Below, piece by piece: positions 51,951-57,531 of a stretch of 64,000 bases of DNA. Under the pieces are notes generated by a model. It searched no databases. It was not told where the DNA came from and saw only the letters and a program-made list of their open reading frames with translations. Location: NCBI GenBank assembly GCA_021775315.1, contig JAJFIC010000052.1:1-64000 (forward strand), read 5' to 3'. A program made the translations under genes and the position numbers. The DNA is from Paracoccaceae bacterium. GTDB taxonomy: Bacteria > Pseudomonadota > Alphaproteobacteria > Rhodobacterales > Rhodobacteraceae. Every line of letters begins with the position of its first letter. Within the stretch, counting starts at the first letter, position 1.

Positions 51951-52352
51951 CTAGGCCTCACCCAGAAAGGGTATGTTGGTATTGCTGTTTTCCTGTGGCA
52001 ATCCATAGCTTAATCCGCGCGCAATCCGGTGTGTAAGTGCGGACCATGACTGCGCCAAAGGCTGCGGTAATTCTTGGTTCAGGACAGCATCAAACAGCGC
52101 CAGCCAAACAGCGAAATGTTCGGCTTTGACGTTGCCCGCTGCCATGTGCACCTGCATCGGGTTGCCATCATAGCAGTGCTGCAACAACAGCGCGTTACGC
52201 CAAAACCGCACGATCTTTTCTTCGTGCGTTGGCCAGTCTTTTACATGCACCGCAAAAACAGGCCCAAGCACAGGATGCGCACGTATGCGGGCGTAGAATT
52301 GAACCACAACGCAATCGATCTGCGCCTCTGTCACAGGGATGCGCGGGGGCAT
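51951..52352 (-). CDS. Group III truncated hemoglobin
   Basis: This 133-residue globin starts at ATG 52352, giving the normal length; a 178-residue reading would swallow the upstream small gene. FYARIRAHPVLGPVF, W40 in VKDWPTHEEKIVRFW and GNPMQVHMAAG followed by HFAVWLALFD are typical of group III truncated hemoglobins. The heme-ligand histidine is H69 or H79. Family members bind oxygen or nitric oxide. It begins 2 nt after the stop of a 51-residue membrane ORF, with no strong ribosome-binding site of its own, so it is probably translated by coupling. Confidence 0.85.
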   Translation of the reverse strand: MPPRIPVTEAQIDCVVVQFYARIRAHPVLGPVFAVHVKDWPTHEEKIVRFWRNALLLQHCYDGNPMQVHMAAGNVKAEHFAVWLALFDAVLNQELPQPLAQSWSALTHRIARGLSYGLPQENSNTNIPFLGEA

Positions 52353-52354
52353 CG

Positions 52355-52510
52355 TCACACTGCGAAAATCCAGACGCCAACTAGGCTTATGACGAGATAA
52401 ACGAGTGTGTTGACCATCCAACGGATCAGAGCATTTTCCCCCTCTGGGTCCACCCCCAGACGTTCGCAAGCCTTTGTTCCCGGCCATAGAAATACTTCAG
52501 TCAACGACAT
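52355..52510 (-). CDS. Small membrane protein ORF upstream of truncated hemoglobin (51 aa)
   Basis: This is a short uncalled ORF. The ATG at 52510 has AAGGAG 8 nt upstream, the best ribosome-binding site in the area, and the frame ends at TGA 52355-52357, 2 nt before the globin start. The protein has an amphipathic N-terminal half (MSLTEVFLWPGTKACERLGV, with DPEGEN following) and one C-terminal membrane helix (about residues 31-50). I do not recognise a named family. The strong site, charge pattern and coupling to the globin argue that it is real. It may anchor or assist the heme protein at the membrane; this is inference. Confidence 0.65.
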   Translation of the reverse strand: MSLTEVFLWPGTKACERLGVDPEGENALIRWMVNTLVYLVISLVGVWIFAV

Positions 52511-52584: not shown

Positions 52585-52955
52585 AACAATCGCATGCAGC
52601 TGGACAAATCTTGCCTTTTCCGTCCTAGCAGCGGTTTGCGCGATTGAATAGCACGGTTCCAAGGGGCTTTCTTCTTGAGGCCGGATCGCTATGCGCCCGC
52701 TGATGTGACACGCTTTAAGCGCGCGCTTGTCGCTTTGCTGGATGTGTTATCGAAATGCCTAAGGGGACATTGTTCAGAGGTTCCCTAGCTACATTGGAAA
52801 ATGGTTGATTTGACGCGCATGTTTGCAATTTTGTGGTCAAAGTGGAGCAGCGGCACAGCGACAAACCTCCAGCTTACCCGGGCAGCCGGCGCTGTTGCAT
52901 CCTGAACGCCACTTGCCATACTCTCAGCCAAAAGCGATAGAAACAGGCGCATCGA
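52585..52955. other. Intergenic gap, no gene seen
   Basis: This 371-nt stretch between the globin promoter and the exosortase gene holds no ORF with a plausible start site. A perfect 12-bp palindrome, AAGCGCGCGCTT, lies at 52717-52728. The exosortase promoter must be here, but I could not identify it. Confidence 0.4.
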
Positions 52956-54533
52956 GTGTTCAGTCAGACCCTTCCTAACCGGTTGCTTCCTGCAGCGCTT
53001 CTGGCGCTGGCGACGGTTGTGGCGTTTGTGCTGATCTATCAGGTCTTTTCCCCCATCGAATGCCACCTGACCGACTATGAGGCCGCCTGCCGGGGCCTGC
53101 GCGGCTCATTGATACGGGCGGTGTTCCTGCTGGCGGTGCTTGCGCTTTACCTCTGGCGCAAACCGGGGGCCTATCAGGGGCTGCAAAAGGCCACAGCCGA
53201 CGGAGCCGGGCCGCAGGTTTGGCTGCTGGTCTTTCTGTGCGGAGTCGTTATCGCCCTTGTACCCACCGCCCTGATCGCACCGGACGAGATGAACCACGCC
53301 TTTGGAACTGCCTTTGCATTCATGAGCATTGGCGCCGCACTGGCGGGGCTTGGGTTGTTGATCTGGACTGCAAATCCGGGGGCTTGGCTGGGTTGGTTGC
53401 GAGATGGCAACTATGCCATATTGGCCTATCTGACAGTTGCGGCGTTGTTGCCGGAACTGGCAACGGCAATCGCGCCTCTTTGGGATGGCACCAAGTTAAG
53501 CGAGCTGACCTTCACCTTGGTCAATAACTTACTCGTCCTGACCGGGGCCGAAGTGTTCGTGGAACCCGACAGCTACATTATCGGCGTTGACGGTTTCGTT
53601 GTGCAGGTCGCCAGCCAGTGTTCCGGCATCGAAGGGGTGGCGCTGGTGCTCGGCTTCATGACCCTTTACGCGCTGTTGATGCGCAGTGACCTTAACATGC
53701 GGCGCTATTGGCTGGTATTGCTGCCGCTGGCGCTGATGACAAGCTGGGGGCTGAACATCGTCCGCATCGCGGTTTTGATCATGATCGGCGCATGGGTGTC
53801 AGAAACCCATGCGTTGAACGGGTTTCATTCTTTTGCGGGGTGGCTTTTGTTCACGGCCTTAGCACTTGTGGTTGTGGTTGTGGCGCAAGCGATCCCGTGG
53901 TTTCACCGCAAGGACCGGGTGCAGAGCAAGGGTGCTCCGTTGGCCGACGATTGGATGGCGTTGTGCATTTTGCCCTTTGTGGTGATGATGGTGTCAGGTG
54001 TCGTTGTATCGGTGATCTGGGCAGAGCCTGAGGCAGGATATTCATTGCGCGTGGCGATGATGCTGGCGGTGTTGCTTTATTTCCACCGTGCCCTCAGGCA
54101 GATGGGCTGGCGGGCGAGCCCGCTTTCCGCCCTGGCCGGTGTAGTGGTTGGTGTTCTTTGGGTGCTGCCAACGCTGGGCAGCGCAGGCCCAGTCACCGCA
54201 GCACCTTATGCCACATGGGTCTGGATCGCCTTGCGTCTGAGCGGAACAATTCTTTTCGTGCCGATCATCGAAGAACTGTTCTTCCGCGGCTATATTCTGC
54301 GCCGATTGGATGAGGTCGGCGGCCTGTCCATGCGCCTGTTGGCCTTGGCCGTGTCATCAGGCCTGTTTGCCCTAATGCATGAGGCATGGGCGCTGGCGAC
54401 GCTGGCGGGGCTGGTCTTTGGTCTGTTGATGCTTTGGCGCGGCCGTCTGGCCGATGCGGTGCTGGCCCATGTCGCGGCCAATGCCACGGTCGCGATCTGG
54501 GCGGTCTACAGCGGTAATTGGTCTGCCATATAA
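52956..54533 (+). CDS. xrtE: Exosortase E fused to a CAAX-type (CPBP) protease, VPEID-CTERM system
   Basis: This 525-residue polytopic protein starts at GTG. The exosortase half has the catalytic triad C222 (QCSGIEGVALVLG), R270 (NIVRIAV) and H291 (GFHSFAGW). The C-terminal half is a CPBP intramembrane protease with E439-E440 and R444 (IIEELFFRGY), H475 (ALMHEAW) and H505 (LAHVAAN). This fusion is the exosortase E/protease subtype, which processes proteins ending in a VPEID-CTERM tail at the cell surface. Its expected target lies 43 nt past its stop, in convergent orientation. A bidirectional terminator separates the two. Exosortases usually accompany exopolysaccharide loci, and this window has one 15 kb away. 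Confidence 0.93.
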   Translation: MFSQTLPNRLLPAALLALATVVAFVLIYQVFSPIECHLTDYEAACRGLRGSLIRAVFLLAVLALYLWRKPGAYQGLQKATADGAGPQVWLLVFLCGVVIALVPTALIAPDEMNHAFGTAFAFMSIGAALAGLGLLIWTANPGAWLGWLRDGNYAILAYLTVAALLPELATAIAPLWDGTKLSELTFTLVNNLLVLTGAEVFVEPDSYIIGVDGFVVQVASQCSGIEGVALVLGFMTLYALLMRSDLNMRRYWLVLLPLALMTSWGLNIVRIAVLIMIGAWVSETHALNGFHSFAGWLLFTALALVVVVVAQAIPWFHRKDRVQSKGAPLADDWMALCILPFVVMMVSGVVVSVIWAEPEAGYSLRVAMMLAVLLYFHRALRQMGWRASPLSALAGVVVGVLWVLPTLGSAGPVTAAPYATWVWIALRLSGTILFVPIIEELFFRGYILRRLDEVGGLSMRLLALAVSSGLFALMHEAWALATLAGLVFGLLMLWRGRLADAVLAHVAANATVAIWAVYSGNWSAI

Positions 54534-54538
54534 CAAAG

Positions 54539-54573
54539 GGCCGCCCGAAAGCGACCTTCGGCAGCCATTTTTT
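54539..54573 (+). terminator. Intrinsic terminator between the exosortase and its substrate gene
   Basis: GGCCGCCCGAA pairs with TTCGGCAGCC (one mismatch, one bulge) and is followed by ATTTTTT, a Rho-independent terminator for the exosortase gene. Read leftward, the same stem is followed by CCCTTTGTT, so it may also stop the opposing transcript weakly. Confidence 0.7.
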
Positions 54574-54576
54574 GGA

Positions 54577-54792
54577 TTAAACTTTCTTGGCATTCATCCG
54601 GCGGCGGCGTTCCCATACCAACACGACAACTGCCAGAACTGCGGCCAGTGCCAAAAGGCCCGAGGCGGCGTCGATTTCCGGTACTTGGCTGACCTTTTGC
54701 TTGGACTTCTTACCGGCTTCAACAGCTGTCGCCAAAAGGGCGAAACCGGCGCCTGAAGTTGCTGTCAGCATGATCTGTTTAACGAAAGGCAT
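54577..54792 (-). CDS. VPEID-CTERM sorting-domain protein (71 aa), exosortase E substrate
   Basis: This is a miniature secreted protein. It has a signal peptide of about 26 residues (ending ATAVEA), a ten-residue basic middle (GKKSKQKVSQ), the recognition motif VPEID at 37-41, a membrane helix (about 44-60) and a terminal ERRRR patch. That tripartite tail is the VPEID-CTERM signal cut by exosortase E. The ATG has a near-perfect AAGGAGG 5 nt upstream, which indicates strong translation. After removal of both ends only about ten to fifteen residues would remain, so the mature product is a peptide. It lies convergent to its processing enzyme. Confidence 0.9.
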   Translation of the reverse strand: MPFVKQIMLTATSGAGFALLATAVEAGKKSKQKVSQVPEIDAASGLLALAAVLAVVVLVWERRRRMNAKKV

Positions 54793-56617: not shown

Positions 56618-56707
56618 ACGGGCGAACCGGCATCGATGGTTTGGTTTTCGAGGCATAGTTGGGCATTCGCGACGAAACTCTTGTAACGATTGGAATCCCA
56701 AAACCTC

Positions 56708-57262
56708 AGTGTGGAACACCAGAACATCCAAGGTCGGTTTGACCTTCGCCCTGAGCGGTTAATCTCGGACGCCGCTTATGGAACCGGCCCAATGCTGGAC
56801 TGGTTGGCGAAGCGTGATATCAAACCGCAAATTCCGGTGCTCGACCATACAGGTTGAAAGGATGGCACATGGTCACGCGCCGACTTTGACTGGGACGCCA
56901 AGAACAGCCAATTTATCTGCCCCGAAGGCGAGGCGCAGAAGCAGTTCGGACGCAACTATTCGGACCCGAACCGTGGCCCGACGGGCCAAGGTGTTGCAAA
57001 GTATCAAGTTTTGAAGCTGACCTGCCAAGCCTGCTTGTCCAAAGCGAAATGCTGTCCGATTGCAGGTGCCCGCAAGATCACACGCGAAGAGCACGAAGAG
57101 GTCCACGAGGTCGCCCATCTCAAACGCATCCTTGGCCTCGGACGGCTACGATTGCGTGGACCATGTGGTGCCAATGACGAATTCCTGCTCGCTGCAATTG
57201 CCCGGAACCTCAGTAAACTAGCTAAGATCTTTTCTGCACCGCAGCAAATACGAAAAGCCTGA
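56708..57262 (+). pseudogene. Decayed IS1182-type transposase
   Basis: This is a broken transposase remnant. The reading frame gives DAAYGTGPMLDWLAKRDI and a WSRADFDWDAK block. LTCQACLSKAKCCP (a cysteine-rich segment) follows, then HLKRILGLGRLRLRGPCGAN near the end; the last is characteristic of IS1182-family enzymes. A TGA at 56855-56857 interrupts the frame where a tryptophan is expected. The 5' half is missing, and a stretch is deleted between VHEVA and HLKRIL. The element is dead. Flanking sequence to about 57340 may contain its old end, but no clear terminal repeats were found. Confidence 0.75.
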
Positions 57263-57531
57263 CAGGAAAGAAGCTTACGCCGTGCTCAGCACACCGTTTT
57301 CTGCGCCTGCAAAACGTATTTTTTCACAGATTCGACGGAAACCTGACATTCGCTGCGGATCGAAAGAAGGTGCGCTGAGGGGGGCAATTCTGCCTCCACC
57401 GCAGTCCCGCAAGTGACCGGCTCCAACGCCAACCCGAAATACCAGCTTCGAAACACTTGCCCGCACAAATACTTTGATGTATCAAAAGTGCACACAGTGT
57501 CTAATTATGACAAAGGGAGGCCAAGGGCCCC
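57263..57531. other. IS-derived and intergenic DNA
   Basis: This 269-nt stretch follows the transposase remnant, probably with the old IS tail, and leads to the serine hydrolase gene. GGGAGG near 57521 is that gene's ribosome-binding site. No other feature was seen. Confidence 0.4.

Follow-up and report, generated by a model that had tools for sequence, protein, structure and literature searches.

A convergent exosortase E and VPEID-CTERM gene pair with one very small predicted substrate in a Paracoccaceae bacterium

What product does an exosortase make when the only target recognised for it in its genome is a protein of 71 residues? The question is raised by two convergent genes at positions 52956-54792 of a 64,000-nucleotide stretch (the window) of contig JAJFIC010000052.1, from a Paracoccaceae bacterium whose genome assembly (GCA_021775315.1) comprises 3.69 Mb in 111 contigs. 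One gene encodes XrtE, an exosortase E fused to a CPBP protease, and the other a VPEID-CTERM protein. A sequence-only reading had held that the two form a complete system, that the target keeps only about ten basic residues plus a stub after its cleavages, and that the one-to-one arrangement suggests a surface-anchored or released peptide, not a structural protein. The observation of a complete XrtE/VPEID-CTERM pair is confirmed here, and a dedicated enzyme-substrate pair with a tiny mature part is supported. The interpretation holds in part, and its support comes more from the family than from the window alone. With one dedicated enzyme and one 71-residue substrate, the pair is close to the simplest conceivable exosortase system.

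The enzyme and its 71-residue neighbour

The genes lie as convergent neighbours with a gap of 43 bases, and both the coordinates and the matches to TIGR04162 and TIGR04161 agree with the sequence-only reading. The features of the pair are as follows:

52956..54533, + strand: xrtE, 525 residues from a GTG at 52956, exosortase E fused to a C-terminal CPBP (Rce1/CAAX-like) glutamic intramembrane protease; TIGR04162, PF09721 and PF02517 over cut-off
54577..54792, − strand: VPEID-CTERM substrate precursor, 71 residues from an ATG at 54792; TIGR04161 match, ribosome-binding site AAGGAGG
Precursor layout: predicted signal peptide, residues 1-26; GKKSKQKVSQ, residues 27-36; sorting signal and tail, residues 37-71
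54685..54714, − strand: passenger GKKSKQKVSQ, from the predicted signal-peptide cut to VPEID, read from the sequence
54598..54684, − strand: sorting signal (VPEID motif, transmembrane helix, WERRRR cluster), TIGR04161 positions 1-29

XrtE matched TIGR04162 with E = 1.6e-162 and 542.1 bits (cut-off 150), residues 15-525 aligning with positions 4-516 of the 516 in the model; its start codon is uncertain, since the first 14 residues lie outside the family model. The general exosortase/archaeosortase model TIGR04178 gave 58.4 bits. The C-terminal part scored 60.5 bits against the Pfam Rce1-like model (cut-off 22.4) and 37.2 bits against Mrt_core, under that model's cut-off of 100. Cys222, Arg270 and His291, the catalytic residues of the exosortase family, were invariant in alignments of 29 and of 44 XrtE proteins, as were the CPBP residues Glu439, Glu440, Arg444, His475, His505 and Asn509 and two further cysteines, Cys36 and Cys45. 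Across a family alignment the exosortase Cys/Arg/His set was present in 42 of 42 enzymes and the CPBP residues EE..R and H..N in 41, the sole enzyme lacking them being the frame-broken one of genome G322. The window XrtE keeps both of its predicted active sites intact.

An AlphaFold2 model of XrtE had a mean pLDDT of 90.9. Compared with solved structures, its best Foldseek match had E = 2.4 and VIA-align gave Z of at most 5.1, a null result that is evidence neither of a new fold nor of the absence of a known one; no sequence relative was found among solved structures at E ≤ 0.1. In Roseovarius gaetbuli CECT 8370 (L148, 5001-6563) the stretch matched to XrtE contains one in-frame stop, and the frame of the tiny substrate is open.

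The small protein matched TIGR04161 with 46.8 bits (cut-off 33) over residues 37-65, and its ribosome-binding site lies five bases 5′ of the ATG. The signal-peptide cut between AVEA and GKK, after residue 26, was judged by eye; an automatic rule cuts after residue 23. Of the 'about ten basic residues' that had been read here, the number stands and the description does not, because only four of the ten are Lys (net charge +4). As a peptide that is actually made, GKKSKQKVSQ is predicted and unproven.

Number and form of the substrates

The window genome has one XrtE and one gene matching TIGR04178. TIGR04161 found one VPEID-CTERM protein there even at E ≤ 10, and a broader model built from 23 sorting signals likewise found one substrate. 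The survey for further VPEID-CTERM proteins, which had been proposed as a check, therefore yielded none of the many larger ones that would have counted against the reading, and the many-targets-per-enzyme arrangement of the PEP-CTERM kind is not what this genome contains.

The family was sampled as 394 genomes (G labels, with the window genome as G000). XrtE was found in 42 of these and a TIGR04161 match in 41, both together in 39. The three XrtE genomes missed by TIGR04161 (G007, G017 and G141) have VPEV or APEI signals near XrtE, and their rows were included in a broader model, A1. With A1, at least one substrate was found in all 42 XrtE genomes and exactly one, at E < 1e-7, in 39; G216 had two, G027 four and G141 six. 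Weak A1 matches in eight genomes (E 0.0097-0.047) were taken as chance. Two genomes, G048 and G134, had a substrate and no XrtE that could be found. The proposed one-to-one pairing thus holds in 39 of 42 XrtE genomes and fails as a general rule in G141 (L100), whose six substrates are large (open frames of 203-539 residues, five of them near XrtE), so that XrtE is not restricted to peptides. G141 is a possible case of transition from one-to-one to many-to-one sorting.

Several loci depart from the simple pair in other ways. At G141 (including G141:C1:2341758-2341847) the large VPEV-type substrates replace the tiny one. At L177 (G027:C78, about 213290-214176) one XrtE is accompanied by three VPEID-CTERM genes in tandem, whose products all lack a signal peptide; the product of a fourth G027 gene, on a different contig, has one. 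Rubellimicrobium arenae has two XrtE loci on two contigs (L196 and L205), with a substrate found beside only one.

A contig search with the window protein alone confirmed no relative, and with an XrtE alignment it gave 80 named loci (L labels), including Shimia, Roseovarius, Gemmobacter, Marivita, Natronohydrobacter, Ruegeria and Phaeobacter. Substrates were collected from the G genomes (47) and from 75 of the 80 named loci (78). Of the former, 46 were kept (a fused open reading frame of G216 was dropped), and 57 of the latter were added, leaving out seven rows of L169, L177, L186 and L199 and 14 duplicates. The resulting set of 103 distinct small substrates does not count the six large ones of G141.

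In this set the passenger before VPEID has 6-59 residues (median 24) and the whole precursor 52-122 (median 72). The tiny mature part that had been read from the window is borne out by these lengths, and judged from such predicted passengers miniature partners are the rule for the XrtE family. At least two Trp, Phe or Tyr residues occur in 73 of the 103 passengers, and 22, the window's included, have no aromatic residue. The aromatic residues are concentrated in the first half of the passenger (27.1%, against 4.9% in the second), and Gly, Ser and Thr rise from 33.0% in the first half to 57.1% in the second. Cysteine tends to come in pairs: 83 passengers have none, 2 have one and 18 have two, compared with means of 25.4 ones and 5.1 twos under random placement. 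The usual design therefore appears to be a head with aromatic residues or a Cys pair, followed by a flexible linker of Gly, Ser and Thr.

In 25 of the 103 substrates the signal peptide is absent and the protein starts directly at the head, as in MWNWFF (Roseovarius) and MWWDSWRIFFGGG (a Marivita relative); such starts are mostly preceded by a Shine-Dalgarno match of at least 4 bases. Twenty-two of these calls came from a hydropathy rule and three were made by hand (G017, L162 and one of the three tandem G027 genes, the last two of which contradict the rule). L169 (a frame problem), L184 (just under threshold) and L199 were flagged by the rule and not counted. The signal peptide thus does not define the VPEID-CTERM family, and the 52-60-residue substrates of relatives that lack it are simpler still than the window's.

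The distribution of this trait was followed on a FastTree phylogeny of 97 XrtE proteins, drawn from 26 of the 42 G genomes (without the frame-broken G322 and 15 that duplicate named loci) and 71 of the 80 named loci (all except L140, L152, L165, L169, L186, L197, L199, L205 and L211), with G141 carrying no signal-peptide label. The label changed six times on this tree, five times without the doubtful L162, and four times without L162 and the long-branched G017.

Sequence conservation differs strongly between the two parts of the precursor. On 45 rows from the G genomes (both G216 rows excluded), the mean pairwise identity of passengers across genera was 14.2%, against 12.9% when shuffled, and that of sorting signals 57.5%, against 25.1%. 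In 21 close pairs, the proportions of nonsynonymous (pN) and synonymous (pS) differences in the passenger were 0.212 and 0.626; these pairs were hand-picked, with L191 and L173 each used twice and only gap-free columns compared, and pS was near saturation in several. The dN/dS ratio was 0.088 in the sorting signal, the lowest of the three regions, and 0.185 in the passenger, the latter mostly from pairs that bear a signal peptide, as heads without one fell into the signal-peptide column. These values indicate that the passenger is under purifying selection among close relatives and changes fast between genera. Selection on the heads in close relatives is as expected if the peptide is the product.

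The same figures could be read the other way, with the passenger as a spacer and the function residing in the cleaved C-terminal helix and its basic tail, which might for instance stay in the membrane as a regulator. The sorting signal is indeed far better conserved than the passenger and has the lowest dN/dS. However, a helix that the enzyme has to recognise would be conserved in any case, and heads keep their aromatic or paired-Cys design, are under purifying selection in close species and are retained where the signal peptide is absent. We consider a helix product quite unlikely. Because the heads are selected in close relatives and persist in precursors that lack a signal peptide, they look like the product. 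On the simplest reading they are, and a tail this short would translocate without a cleaved signal peptide.

A possible route to an envelope peptide

The pair, its intact sites, its single substrate, and the tiny heads under selection in close relatives were established by computation, and a route from precursor to product can be proposed that would use all of them. The small precursor would be inserted with its C-terminus inside and its N-terminus outside, the C-terminal helix being held by the RRRR cluster. Export by Sec and cleavage by signal peptidase I would, in the window genome, leave a new N-terminus at about GKK. Cys222, Arg270 and His291, which make up the exosortase site of XrtE, may then cut the protein in the periplasm, at VPEID or close to it. 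If XrtE behaves like archaeosortase A, the short peptide may next be transferred to an amine of a lipid or glycan in the envelope; hydrolysis and release would be the alternative to transfer. The fused CPBP protease (Glu439/Glu440/His475/His505) may clear the leftover helix or complete the cut. The product would be an envelope peptide of about 10-18 residues, in the family usually with an aromatic or Cys-paired head and a flexible linker. We regard it as about equally likely to be right or wrong that the pair is a dedicated exosortase-type peptide-display system of this kind, with a likely role in surface adhesion or matrix tethering. The system would bring two questions within reach of mass spectrometry on one small molecule: what the acceptor of exosortase targets is, and why XrtE has a second protease.

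The window pair is by sequence an ordinary member of the XrtE/VPEID-CTERM system named by NCBI (TIGR04162, TIGR04161), in that enzyme and signal score over the curated cut-offs, the genes are neighbours and the pairing is one-to-one; only the head is an outlier, having the highest positive charge per residue among the 103 substrates and no aromatic residue. All 11 plasmid records found with the protein annotate the gene as xrtE, and the system is thus known to annotation. No study of this named system and no mention of VPEID-CTERM was found in the literature searched, and the founding archaeosortase/exosortase paper may hold an earlier account.

The proposed route can be compared with three better described systems. 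With exosortase/PEP-CTERM, the pair shares the Cys/Arg/His core and the tripartite signal of motif, helix and basic cluster. That system is linked with exopolysaccharide production (PMC11980579). The window pair differs from it in having one tiny target and a fused CPBP protease, and a quarter of the compared VPEID family lacks a signal peptide. Archaeosortase A (ArtA), which acts on PGF-CTERM, belongs to the same superfamily, TIGR04178, and to our knowledge has no CPBP half. A Cys intermediate resolved by the amine of archaetidylethanolamine has been proposed for it (PMC7157517). ArtA is archaeal and its substrate is a large S-layer glycoprotein; it is for ArtA that lipid attachment has been studied.

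The myxosortase systems MrtX/MYXO-CTERM and MrtJ/JDVT-CTERM share with XrtE a CPBP protease that cuts a C-terminal sorting signal, and we know of no myxosortase with an exosortase half. A CPBP family member sorts C-terminally tagged proteins in Myxococcus, the MYXO-CTERM motif has an invariant Cys, and MrtJ and its one JDVT-CTERM protein form a dedicated system of two genes comparable to this one (PMC11980579). The VPEID signals compared here lack the invariant Cys typical of MYXO-CTERM. The term 'dedicated system' has been used for an enzyme with a single target (PMC3237569). An exosortase acting on a peptide this small does not appear in the literature excerpts examined.

Gene neighbours and a thioester-domain-like adhesin

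The surroundings of the pair were compared by clustering all open reading frames within 8.5 kb of XrtE in the 42 genomes, with groups named by eye. A conserved third gene for the convergent pairs was considered and rejected, as no general partner was present among the 25 largest neighbour groups listed. Apart from an adhesin, described below, each of these groups was common to 7-16 genomes and resembled local synteny or paralogous transporters; those named were ABC transporters, ribosomal proteins with EF-G, an RND pump and EamA transporters.

These neighbours bear on the possibility that the peptide is released, as a signal or a membrane-active antimicrobial, with the CPBP half serving for processing or self-protection. 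The heads are short, variable and often Trp-rich or Cys-paired, that of the window is cationic, and the CPBP family takes its name from CaaX proteases and bacteriocin processing (PMC11980579). On the other hand, no gene resembling an exporter or immunity gene stood out by eye in the top 25 neighbour groups listed, net charge is between -1 and +1 in 73 of the 103 passengers, the conserved CPBP catalytic residues indicate a protease rather than a bare immunity protein, and the signal is built in three parts, as in anchoring systems. A released peptide of this type is thus decidedly improbable.

The adhesin itself is a protein with open frames of 471-1732 residues, encoded in 12 genomes on the 5′ side of the tiny gene. 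Three such proteins, scanned whole, had SdrD_B and Ig- or cadherin-like domains. All 12 share a C-terminal domain with an invariant C, Q-.-A-I-W and QP. The Pfam TED model matched 8 of the 12 C-terminal pieces at E ≤ 0.1 (best 3.7e-7); on the three full adhesins it gave 20.5 and 15.9 bits (cut-off 22), with no match listed for the third. A sequence search of the domain against solved structures gave one chance-level match only. Thioester domains are described by a [YFL]C-hydrophobic motif and a TQXX-hydrophobic-W motif (PMC6194298). In the partner found with one XrtE group, the [YFL]C-hydrophobic motif is followed by Q..hydrophobic-W, as in the TED/TIE adhesins of Gram-positive bacteria, with Val or Ile in place of the Thr. 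The partner differs from these in its Gram-negative hosts, in the C-terminal position of the domain and in having an exosortase neighbour instead of sortase anchoring. No literature joining thioester-domain adhesins with XrtE was found; the excerpt of one paper on isopeptide bonds (PMC12617251) mentions a thioester domain and an exosortase without linking them.

A model of the adhesin domain, A2, matched in 19 of the 394 genomes, 13 of the 42 with XrtE and 6 of the 352 without. In all 13 the adhesin gene immediately precedes the tiny gene and has the same orientation. Twelve adhesin-linked XrtE proteins fell in one group of the tree, with one further long-branch row. Among seven plasmid stretches examined from the 11 plasmid matches, four have adhesin, tiny gene and xrtE in a row (Limimaricola, Rhodobacter, strain SC52 and Alloyangia) and five have polysaccharide or glycosyltransferase genes; no recognisable substrate was found in the Rhodovulum stretch, truncated where its record begins. 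Four G loci have polysaccharide-chain or kinase genes, judged by eye. This context suggests the surface or the matrix as the likely destination, more than a free signal, and makes the view that the product is not structural no more than a possibility; the adhesin link makes surface attachment a candidate role for one XrtE group.

Adhesin domains were also seen apart from XrtE. In G134 (L105, 482719-485110) a thioester-type adhesin adjoins a tiny VPEIS gene, XrtE was not found, and a large polysaccharide chain-length/kinase-like gene (by eye) follows. L127-L131 (G388, G063, G294, G318 and G001) have the adhesin domain and neither an XrtE nor a TIGR04161 match; polysaccharide-type genes lie near it in G063 and G001 (by eye).

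A further possibility is that the tiny protein is an adaptor, which would hold a separately secreted adhesin (or polysaccharide) by its head while XrtE fixes the adaptor in the envelope. On four plasmids and in one group of the enzymes the three genes adjoin, the adhesin gene remains next to the tiny gene in G228, with XrtE inverted, and in G134, with no XrtE found, and the adhesins have no evident signal peptide by eye, one of them lying beside type I secretion genes. Against this, the adhesin-domain model had no match in 29 of the 42 XrtE genomes, the window's included, and an adaptor is unlikely. Docking of a peptide Cys pair to the C-terminal Cys-x-Cys of the adhesin was also considered; 8 of the 18 adhesin-linked peptides lack a Cys pair and 10 have one, so that a disulfide dock is not general.

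Peptide display can be extended to the family as a whole. XrtE systems would then be minimal peptide-display machines that sort peptides of about 6-60 residues, whose heads tether a thioester adhesin or polysaccharide on Rhodobacteraceae and change quickly between genera while being selected within them; the signal peptide would be dispensable because the head is short enough for direct translocation. This generalization is possible, though we think it doubtful.

Several observations weigh against peptide display with a surface role. The 29 XrtE genomes without a match to the adhesin model include G000 (E ≤ 1e-8), the window XrtE falls outside the adhesin-linked tree group, and the gathering of adhesin-linked enzymes in one group indicates one old association that was kept, not many independent ones. 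No polysaccharide-like gene was found among the six neighbouring window genes scanned. GKKSKQKVSQ lacks the aromatic residues of the usual head and no similar head occurs among the 103 substrates, so the selection figures come from relatives; with the case for a peptide product resting on them, the particular window peptide is unproven. The large substrates of G141 add that the idea of a peptide product, which gains from the selected heads of close relatives, does not extend to everything that XrtE sorts. Lastly, the VPEID gene was found in the window genome alone in a sample of ten genomes of the genus, two of which are less than 85% complete.

This last point would also fit a pair that has no current function here, whether newly acquired or left as a decaying remnant. 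The nine other genomes of the genus gave no DNA match to the two genes, the window head is atypical, and a transposase-like fragment and repeated DNA lie nearby at 56690-57360. However, both genes are intact, the catalytic residues are kept and the small gene has a strong ribosome-binding site, which makes a remnant very improbable. The nearest enzyme to the window XrtE is 48% identical, and the tree places the latter in a group of 15 rows with Shimia and Phaeobacter enzymes.

At 56690-56857 and 57111-57360 lie a fragment of a transposase-like open reading frame, recognised by eye, and the repeated DNA; copies of the latter elsewhere in the genome are 76-84% identical, and those in two sister genomes 78-79%. 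One further feature lies between the convergent genes:

54539..54556, − strand: terminator-like stem (weak), 7 pairs and a T tail

Terminator-like sites in the region number 4, against a shuffle mean of 4.4, and are not above chance. Upstream of xrtE, the open reading frame at 51951-52487 weakly resembles bacterial globins, its 19.0 bits falling short of the cut-off of 21. About 170 bases upstream of xrtE lies a 22-base sequence (52764-52785), whose RNA folding is no better than that of shuffles; its reversed control has 0 copies in the genome, and the sequence itself has four, with 0-2 mismatches.

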